From positions 1-33,891 of IMG/VR virus record IMGVR_UViG_3300020183_000266: a DNA stretch of 33,891 nt; one strand, 5' to 3'. Within the stretch, counting starts at the first letter, position 1. Each line of letters starts with the position of its first letter. The DNA comes from a virus. The notes below the pieces were generated by a model, which had not been told where the DNA came from, ran no database searches, and saw nothing but the letters and a program-made list of their open reading frames with translations. The translations under genes and the position numbers were made by a program. Of the stretch, positions 2,968-33,258 are shown in pieces.

Positions 2968-3146
2968 ACTGCGAGACCTGTAAATTTTTTCAGGCGTCAG
3001 GCAAGTTTGGTATGTGCCAGCGTTACCCCGAGTACGTTATGAAGCAGGCCGGTATGTGGTGCGGCGAGTATCAAAAGAAAGAAGCAGTTGTGGACATAGA
3101 ACCTAAAAGACGAGGGAGACCACCGAGTGATAAAACCGTTGCGTGA
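2964..3146 (+). CDS. Small Cys-rich, probably zinc-binding protein
   Basis: The 60-aa protein has four cysteines in a zinc-finger-like order: C3-x2-C6, C18 and C33. The pattern is C-E-T-C-K-F-F ... G-M-C-Q-R-Y-P ... W-C-G-E-Y. The basic tail P-K-R-R-G-R-P-P resembles an AT-hook and could touch DNA. The GTG start at 2964 overlaps the previous stop. The 3' end overlaps the GroES-like gene by 20 bases. Function unknown; a nucleic-acid-binding or protein-adaptor role is an inference from the motif and tail. Confidence 0.65.
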   Translation: MNCETCKFFQASGKFGMCQRYPEYVMKQAGMWCGEYQKKEAVVDIEPKRRGRPPSDKTVA

Positions 3147-3429
3147 CCGGATCGTTGTAAAACCTTTTGAGCGCCAAAAGAGTGCGGTGCTAGAAGTAAT
3201 CATGCGGGAAAACCCGAATATGGGTGAGGTGGTTGCGGTAGGGCCGGGAGAATACGACAAGAAAGGTCGGCTGGTTCCCAACCCCGCGAAGGTCGGTGAC
3301 AAGATCCGCTACGGGACAACAGGCGAGTATCTGACGTTTGAGCAGTACGAGGAAAACGGCGAGAATTACCTGATAATGAGCTGGAAGGACGTTTGCTGGG
3401 TGGACGAAAATGGCAAAAACTACCAATAA
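3127..3429 (+). CDS. groES: GroES-like co-chaperonin (Cpn10)
   Basis: The 100-aa protein has the length and landmarks of GroES. The N-terminus is I-K-P-L-R-D-R-I-V-V-K-P; G-E-V-V-A-V-G-P-G sits near residues 33-41 and V-G-D-K-I-R-Y-G near 56-63; the C-terminal strand is Y-L-I-M-S-W-K-D-V. The mobile-loop segment (about residues 14-31) is shorter than in E. coli GroES and lacks its usual I-V-L tripeptide; V-I-M near residues 24-26 could take that role. Phage GroES homologues such as T4 gp31 pair with host GroEL to fold the coat protein; P22-type coats are known GroEL/ES clients. No GroEL is encoded here. The GTG start at 3127 has GGGAG (3114-3118) upstream. Confidence 0.88.
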   Translation: MIKPLRDRIVVKPFERQKSAVLEVIMRENPNMGEVVAVGPGEYDKKGRLVPNPAKVGDKIRYGTTGEYLTFEQYEENGENYLIMSWKDVCWVDENGKNYQ

Positions 3430-32498: not shown

Positions 32499-32526
32499 AT
32501 AGTAAACTGTTTATAGGCCATGTCAA
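32499..32526 (-). promoter_or_regulatory. Leftward early promoter
   Basis: On the minus strand a perfect TTGACA (32521-32526 in plus coordinates), 16-base spacer, and TACTAT (32499-32504). AAACAGTT (minus strand) abuts the -10, inside the palindrome TAAACTGTTTA (plus 32503-32513). Start is expected near 32492, just before the 97-aa gene. Confidence 0.78.
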
Positions 32527-32582: not shown

Positions 32583-32611
32583 TTGGCAAGAACAGGTTAT
32601 TGCCCTATAAT
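32583..32611 (+). promoter_or_regulatory. Rightward promoter of the structured RNA
   Basis: TTGGCA (32583-32588), 17-base spacer, perfect TATAAT (32606-32611). The spacer holds AACAGGTTATTG (32591-32602), part of a near-palindrome shared with sites at 32524 and 32965. Start is expected near 32618. Confidence 0.8.
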
Positions 32612-32617
32612 CGGGGT

Positions 32618-32797
32618 GTCAGCAGGGTGGCACCTGTTGGAATCAAAGGGACGAGGCAATACCAGCGCAAGCCCGCATAAGTCTAGGGCGTGTGTAGCGT
32701 TAAAACCGATGAGTCGGCTTACTGGTATTGCCCCCTCATTGGTTTCAATGTCTGCTCATGCCAAGAGCCACGCTCTAGTCTTATGCGGGTTTTTTCT
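32618..32797 (+). ncRNA. Structured noncoding RNA candidate with interlocking helices and terminator
   Basis: This roughly 180-nt unit runs from a strong promoter to a terminator-like end. A 7-pair hairpin (32620-32626 with 32633-32639) opens it. Helix A (32655-32665 with 32722-32732) is 11 perfect pairs. Helix B (32672-32692 with 32769-32789) is 21 positions with one mismatch and one G-T, and runs into TTTTTTCTT. Helix C (32703-32713 with 32735-32745) is 11 pairs with one G-T. A crosses both B and C, so the RNA forms a pseudoknot or switches between folds. No ribosome-binding site with a convincing frame was seen inside. It may be a trans-acting RNA or an attenuating leader of the rightward operon. 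Confidence 0.6.
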
Positions 32798-32802: not shown

Positions 32803-32946
32803 GCTGGCTGCGCGAAACGCCAGCTAAGTAAAAGGCGTGGATGGGATAGAGGCCGGGGGATAAGTAGCCCCGGAGCCGGGGTCGACACCCGCTATATCCG
32901 TCTAGTAGTGGGCATGGCTACCTAGAGTACCGTTGTTACGGGATAC
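32803..32946 (+). other. Structured region: three-way junction and hairpin series
   Basis: This noncoding DNA is almost entirely self-complementary in order. Hairpin GCTGGC/GCCAGC (32803-32808, 32819-32824). A three-way junction at 32839-32899: GGAT-ggg-ATAG pairs with CTATATCC, enclosing CCGGGG/CCCCGG (32853-32858, 32868-32873) and CGGG-GTCGACA-CCCG (32877-32891). Then TCTAGTAG/CTAC-c-TAGA (32901-32926), and GTA-CCGT/ACGG-ga-TAC (32927-32946). The loop GTCGACA resembles a tRNA T-loop, but there is no D-arm, anticodon arm or CCA. Candidates are an antitermination or leader RNA, an origin, or a separate small RNA. Confidence 0.5.
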
Positions 32947-32963
32947 ATCTCCATGTAAGTCTG

Positions 32964-32981
32964 GCAAAAACCTGTTTTTGC
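32964..32981. promoter_or_regulatory. Palindromic operator, 18 bp
   Basis: GCAAAAAC-CT-GTTTTTGC (32964-32981) is a perfect inverted repeat. Its core AAAACAGGTTTT recurs as AACAGGTTTTTG (32524-32535) and AACAGGTTATTG (32591-32602). It overlaps the -35-like TTGCTA (32978-32983) of a possible rightward promoter, spacer 17, TTTAAG at 33001-33006. Confidence 0.55.
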
Positions 32982-33019
32982 TAGTTGGTCGGTCTATGGT
33001 TTTAAGGACAAAGAACAGC

Positions 33020-33046
33020 TTGCAAACAGTTTGCAGTTCGGATAAT
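33020..33046 (+). promoter_or_regulatory. Possible promoter directly before the 33055 gene
   Basis: TTGCAA (33020-33025), 15-base spacer, GATAAT (33041-33046, 5 of 6). The spacer is short, so the call is weak. The palindrome AAACAGTTT (33024-33032) overlaps the -35. Transcription would begin at or very near the ATG at 33055, where no Shine-Dalgarno is visible, so the message may be leaderless. Confidence 0.4.
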
Positions 33047-33054
33047 GTAATTCC

Positions 33055-33258
33055 ATGCAAAACGAAATCGACCAGCTCAAGAAGGTCGTCCCGTGGGCCA
33101 AAAAGGTCTGGGCGCAAAGCCTCGGGATAGTGCTTTCCCTCTTAATCGGGTTCGGTCTAGGGGTCTTACATACCGAGGGCCAAATCATCGATGACTGCCG
33201 GTACTCCAGCGTCTTTAGGATCGGATTACAGGCCTATAACTGCCAGAGGCGTAATTGA
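33055..33258 (+). CDS. Small single-pass membrane protein (67 aa)
   Basis: The 67-aa product (M-Q-N-E-I-D-Q-L-K-K-V-V-P-W-A-K-K) has one membrane helix at about residues 22-38 (S-L-G-I-V-L-S-L-L-I-G-F-G-L-G-V-L). A short C-terminal domain with two cysteines (D-D-C-R-Y and Y-N-C-Q-R) follows. It is the first gene of the rightward unit and has no visible Shine-Dalgarno. It overlaps the next start. Function unknown; host-membrane modification or superinfection exclusion are possibilities that the sequence does not decide. Confidence 0.6.
   Translation: MQNEIDQLKKVVPWAKKVWAQSLGIVLSLLIGFGLGVLHTEGQIIDDCRYSSVFRIGLQAYNCQRRN

Follow-up and report, generated by a model that had tools for sequence, protein, structure and literature searches.

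A widespread family of pseudoknotted phage leader RNAs with a fast-changing but self-matching helix

INTRODUCTION

P4 CI RNA and the c4 antisense RNA (RF01695) are phage regulatory RNAs that gain their specificity through complementary segments. The IsrK RNA of the Salmonella prophage Gifsy-1 has its own promoter and terminator, a short form arising by termination and a long form arising by read-through; part of the short RNA is able to pair with sequence downstream of its own terminator, giving alternative structures, and IsrK acts on the translation of orf45/anrP (PMC4825925). HK022 put is an RNA of ~70 nt with two stem-loops that acts in cis on the polymerase, and putR, located ~270 nt after the PR start, acts in cis without a protein (PMC9378689). 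The function of the phage or prophage RNAs GOLLD and ROOL is unknown; their covarying kissing loops are intermolecular (PMC12286853).

The RNA described here, hereafter RNA1, is followed by a second structured RNA, RNA2. Judging from its sequence features, RNA1 resembles IsrK in having its own promoter and a terminator that would give a short form, and complementarity to sequence beyond the terminator is clear and covarying in most RNA1 relatives and weak in the window. Differences are that the two RNAs show no sequence relation and that the part of the IsrK account consulted (PMC4825925) reports neither a double pseudoknot nor a hypervariable helix. The locus resembles HK022 put in that a phage operon has a structured RNA in its early leader, but RNA1 ends in a terminator and has another architecture, and RNA2 is at least 190 nt long with nine helices; the size, shape and position of put (~70 nt, two stem-loops, ahead of the suppressed terminators) were found in neither RNA1 nor RNA2. 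GOLLD and ROOL are likewise ornate phage RNAs with covarying long-range loop contacts but are much longer and often located near tRNA islands; membership of RNA1 was rejected on the lack of an Rfam match and its length of 117-180 nt. As for the P4 CI/c4 type, RNA1 has no Rfam match to c4, and the pairing logic of that type is repeated in RNA1 only by H1/Z.

RESULTS

Promoter, helices and terminator of RNA1

The window, i.e. the whole stretch of DNA that was analysed, is a 33,891-base IMG/VR virus record from a podovirus-like phage (terminase, portal, scaffold). The features of RNA1 in the window are as follows.

32583..32611, + strand, sigma70-type promoter of RNA1: TTGGCA (32583-32588), 17-nt spacer, TATAAT (32606-32611)
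32618..32795, + strand, RNA1: ~178 nt, doubly pseudoknotted, with an intrinsic-terminator-like hairpin and U run as its 3′ end; 110 distinct homologues
32620..32639, + strand, hairpin H1: CAGCAGG/CCTGTTG, loop GTGGCA; in alignment A4, both-side changes in 4 of 7 pairs and 99.4% paired
32655..32665, + strand, 5′ strand of helix A, hypervariable: based on self versus non-self pairing and on both-side changes
32672..32692, + strand, 5′ strand of helix B, the terminator stem: both-side changes in alignments A2, A3 and A4
32704..32744, + strand, hairpin C: AACCGATGAG/CTCATTGGTT, with A′ in the loop; both-side changes in 5 of 10 pairs in alignment A4
32722..32732, + strand, A′ strand, within the hairpin C loop: same basis as the 5′ strand of helix A
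32755..32767, + strand, hairpin D, inside B: CTC-ATGCCAA-GAG, loop complementary to the H1 loop; exchange of CUC/GAG for CCC/GGG in alignment A4
32769..32795, + strand, B′ strand and U run, the terminator: read from the sequence, with a U run in nearly all homologues

The original prediction, made from the letters of the window, had claimed a near-consensus promoter, which matches the sigma70 consensus at 11 of 12 positions and keeps its place directly upstream of RNA1 in relatives whose sequences differ. Helix A (11 perfect pairs, 32655-32665/32722-32732), helix B (21 positions with one T-T mismatch and one G-T, 32672-32692/32769-32789) and helix C (11 pairs including one G-T, at about 32703-32713/32735-32745), their order A-B-C-A′-C′-B′, the crossing of both B and C by A, and the final U run of six T after B′ (32790-32795) were all found in the sequence as claimed, while hairpins H1 and D and the second structured RNA directly downstream are features beyond that prediction. 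The minimum free energy of 32618-32797, computed without the crossing helix A, is -78 kcal/mol versus -54.4 ± 4.4 for 200 shuffles (z = -5.42). The terminator hairpin of RNA1 is not listed by the terminator scan because the scan accepts only loops of 3-8. That the region is coding was dismissed on sight, since RNA1 varies freely in length (117-180 nt), and a search for tRNA and tmRNA found none.

Relatives of RNA1 and database searches

Relatives were drawn from IMG/VR viral contigs and comprise 110 distinct RNA1 sequences (96 of types I and II plus 14 of subtype Ic), falling into two sequence types and three subtypes and ranging from 117 to 180 nt. Neighbouring proteins gave 13 loci and DNA patterns gave many more, matching 90 stretches for RNA1 type II, 39 for RNA1 type I, 47 for RNA2-A and 25 for RNA2-B. 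Both RNA1 patterns include hairpin D and part of B′, meaning that the constancy there is in part imposed by the patterns themselves; neighbours independent of RNA1 also led to types I, Ic and II.

RNA1 is a previously unlisted RNA and is absent from Rfam 15. That is, at the gathering score there was no match in the window and none over RNA1 in the type I, Ic and II loci, and a permissive Rfam search returned chance matches only, with no family for RNA1, in keeping with the earlier statement that no known RNA family could be recognized. BLASTN of RNA1-RNA2 of several kinds against GenBank phages and PLSDB plasmids gave no match, and neither did exact patterns of RNA2-A and RNA1 type II in GTDB species genomes. 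No recognizable RNA1-RNA2 was present in the intergenic stretches inspected in the nearest GenBank podoviruses (MW202520 and MW202674).

Covariation supports a pseudoknotted fold

The percentage of paired cells, pseudoknots included, was 97.2, 90.1, 89.9 and 91.5% in the four RNA1 alignments (A2-A5), each of which exceeded all 500 shuffles and reached about twice the value of slid controls. Changes on both sides of a pair were seen for helix A in 6 of 10, 6 of 8, 10 of 11 and 5 of 7 pairs (the last figure being the main block in A5), for helix B in 5 of 14, 7 of 13 and 4 of 19 pairs in A2-A4, for helix C in 5 of 10 pairs in type I, and for H1 in all four alignments. MAFFT misaligns the fast helix A across subtypes, and the 61-68% of paired cells obtained for this helix in A3-A5 are therefore underestimates. 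The A′ strand lies within the hairpin C loop in every RNA1.

Since H1, A, B and C each carry compensatory changes, the pseudoknot of RNA1 is real by the covariation criterion. Furthermore, A, B and C occupy disjoint strands and each covaries, so that all three can coexist; of the pseudoknot or switch envisaged in the original prediction, the pseudoknot is thus upheld and the switch between helix A and terminator helix B is disfavoured. Chance pairing, which had been deemed very unlikely, is excluded through the covariation in relatives, and the idea of a structured noncoding RNA with its own promoter and terminator draws support from the folding z, the covariation and the promoter match taken together. 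Sequence comparison makes it virtually certain that RNA1 represents a real, widespread family of structured phage RNAs with the fold given above, and it is from the same comparison that its structure, position and hypervariability are established.

Helix A is hypervariable yet self-matching

The 66 type II RNAs carry 57 distinct A sequences, and the 30 type I RNAs carry 24. The mean A:A′ duplex energy was -17.7 kcal/mol for self versus -9.1 kcal/mol for non-self combinations in type II, and -19.5 versus -11.8 kcal/mol in type I, non-self meaning A from one RNA with A′ from another. For type II pairs with 3-5 other differences, divergence in A and A′ amounted to 0.232 per site versus 0.039 elsewhere (~6-fold). 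Two RNAs (L007 and L015) show 0 of 148 differences outside A and differ at two fully compensated pairs inside A, and another two (L010 and L051) show 1 of 113 differences outside A and 6 of 18 within. Distinct A types were also found together in one metagenome. The pseudoknot helix thus outpaces the remainder of RNA1 in its rate of change and yet is self-matching in every case, a pattern that is rarely so clean.

Such a pattern is expected for specificity determinants, as in plasmid copy-control RNAs, immunity RNAs and self-assembling RNAs, and comparison of the relatives allows helix A to be read as a specificity or identity element. A rather doubtful further possibility is that A:A′ serves as an RNA identity tag, RNA1 acting on, or assembling with, RNA of its own lineage only. 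If true, this would mean that related phages sharing a cell do not interfere with each other, and that the tag is carried by a modular leader in which one unrelated structured RNA replaces another as the second half; it raises the question of whether RNA pairing allows phages to distinguish their own early transcripts from those of rival phages. The fast change of helix A could possibly also result from relaxed constraint combined with template-switch repair of an inverted repeat, rather than from selection for identity.

Alternative pairings of the RNA1 5′ end

The loops of H1 and D are complementary in both types (GUGGCA/UGCCA in type I and GUGAC/GUCA in type II), and this exchange between types suggests a kissing contact. 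The loop pairs are invariant within types, and 7 of the 13 subtype Ic sequences, as aligned, have a broken pairing. Another helix in which the RNA1 5′ end can take part is P0, the strands of which are located as follows.

32618..32623, + strand, 5′ strand of P0, overlapping H1: GTCAGC, complementary to 32803-32808; class-by-class covariation in relatives
32803..32808, + strand, 3′ strand of P0, directly after the terminator: GCTGGC; weak in the window

H1 and P0 are mutually exclusive, both using the RNA1 5′ end. Across relatives, the P0 pairings are GUCGGAAGUG/CAUUUCCGAC, ACUGGAAGUG/CAUUUCCAGU, GUUGGAAGUG/CAUUUCCAAC, GUCAGC/GCUGAC and GUCAUCGG/CCGAUGAC, and each larger or informative class of 5′ end pairs well with its own partner; owing to overlap between partner sequences, a few cross-class pairings are equally strong. 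Of 108 extended transcripts, 63 have a 5′ end that favours P0 over H1 in silico. The window is not among these, its P0 consisting of six pairs including one U-G and being thermodynamically not favoured, and four type II loci with RNA2-A have no good P0. The position of P0 coincides with the joint where RNA1 types and RNA2 kinds get exchanged. At three loci (L094, L104 and L149), a 74-aa reading frame lies directly after the RNA1 U run, between RNA1 and RNA2; an AAGGGG-like ribosome site falls within the terminator stem and, by eye, a short P0-like complement follows the frame.

RNA2 and the replication operon

RNA1 is not isolated, being part of a leader that continues with a second structured RNA and then the replication operon. 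In the window, this second RNA is of type A.

~32807..32985, + strand, RNA2 type A, second structured RNA: own pseudoknot CATGG/CCATG; covariation in alignment A6

The RNA2-A alignment (A6) covers 47 pairs, 12 of them with both-side changes, and is 98.6% paired, a value reached in 0 of 500 shuffles. RNA2 type A is strongly conserved while the neighbouring proteins are 72-91% identical. The RNA2 of the window has no Rfam match, including to the Betaproteobacteria-1 class (RF02932). Overall, the RNA2 slot is filled by at least six unrelated kinds, which combine freely with the RNA1 types. One kind is reminiscent of a cobalamin riboswitch core (GAGCCGGTGCAAATCCG...CCTGCGACTGGC; L113, L144, L130, L157, L106 and L111), but cmscan of L113 gave no cobalamin riboswitch match.

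The order in relatives is RNA1, RNA2 and early genes, most often that of a replication-initiation protein, and RNA1 is located upstream of a replication-initiation gene in many unrelated backbones. At L024, L030 and L039, only RNA2 and a ribosome site lie between RNA1 and this gene. At four other loci (L107, L126, L150 and L176), Betaproteobacteria-1 fills the RNA2 slot and is thus a neighbour of RNA1, not RNA1 itself. This gives a genomic setting to an otherwise unexplained class, suggests that Betaproteobacteria-1 is a phage leader element, and hints at betaproteobacterial hosts.

Operator-like repeats AGTAAACTGTTTA (32501-32513) and TTGCAAACAGTTTGCA (33020-33035) flank RNA1-RNA2 in the window and overlap promoter-like sites, namely those of the leftward genes and of the gene at 33055. 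In phages of subtype Ic (L063-L086), the RNA1 promoter is closely preceded by TAGGCGTATGCCTA or AACCATGGTT repeats, which might be operators.

DISCUSSION

As a tentative but reasonable possibility, we propose that RNA1 is both a leader-derived small RNA and an attenuator of the replication operon, with A:A′ as an identity element. The leader transcript of the rightward early (replication) operon would have RNA1 as its short isoform, produced by termination and folding in the order H1, A, B, then C (the loop of which holds A′), D and B′, with the A:A′ pseudoknot established by comparison and a probable kissing contact between the H1 and D loops. Most transcripts would end at B/B′ and the U run, giving a stable small RNA, and a fraction, as gene order alone would suggest, may read through, fold RNA2 and carry the early genes. 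In most relatives, the 5′ end of the long transcripts could leave H1 and close the RNA1 domain via P0. A single leader might thereby serve as attenuator and small RNA, much as Gifsy-1 IsrK does with its short and long isoforms. The sequence of A:A′ would be free to change as long as it matches itself, leaving RNA1 unable to pair with the RNA1 of a co-infecting relative. Termination, read-through, action in trans and the identity role are functions that we infer for RNA1 from sequence. A further promoter-like site follows RNA2 in the window, meaning that read-through is not necessarily required for the early genes.

A rather unlikely alternative is that RNA1 and RNA2 together form a cis-acting antitermination leader like HK022 put, in which RNA2 would bind the polymerase and make it disregard the terminators of the long rightward operon, with RNA1 only tuning entry. 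A position in the early leader ~190 nt past the promoter, and an RNA2 that is structured, strongly conserved and ahead of the early genes in most loci, would fit this scheme. However, the RNA1 terminator precedes RNA2, which therefore cannot suppress it, and put measures ~70 nt with two stem-loops, whereas RNA2 is 190-290 nt long, and no fewer than six unrelated kinds of it occupy the same slot.

Control of immunity or superinfection by RNA, in the manner of P4 CI or c4, appears unlikely. A resident RNA1 would here pair with the incoming leader and stop the early operon, which is consistent with the leader position before replication genes, with a hypervariable self-complementary segment such as immunity specificity would predict, and with the occurrence of different A types side by side in a single sample. 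However, no integrase or repressor was seen among the genes scanned (part of the ORFs), making lysogeny doubtful, and A pairs best within its own molecule. Moreover, k-mers of A or A′ elsewhere in the phages' own contigs were not above control, so that no other phage target, i.e. no separate complementary segment in a phage transcript, was found.

A self-assembling, structural role for RNA1 on the model of GOLLD and ROOL, in which A:A′ (and H1:D) would form between molecules, is improbable. Such pairing is conceivable because A′ occupies a hairpin loop and A is a free strand; the covarying kissing loops of GOLLD and ROOL did prove intermolecular (PMC12286853), and a need for self-matching would keep co-infecting phages apart. 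Against this, RNA1 is 117-180 nt long versus at least 800 for many GOLLD RNAs, and covariation cannot separate intra- from intermolecular pairing. Finally, the switch in which an early helix A prevents terminator helix B is very improbable, as A and B share no nucleotide and covary within the same sequences, even though strand order implies that A:A′ would be complete before B′ is made and would enclose the 5′ strand of B in a closed loop.

Elsewhere in the window, the + strand encodes a GroES-like co-chaperonin (3127-3429; Cpn10, E = 2e-13) and a protein matching PHROG 3704, annotated as ferredoxin (883-1509; E = 5e-75).
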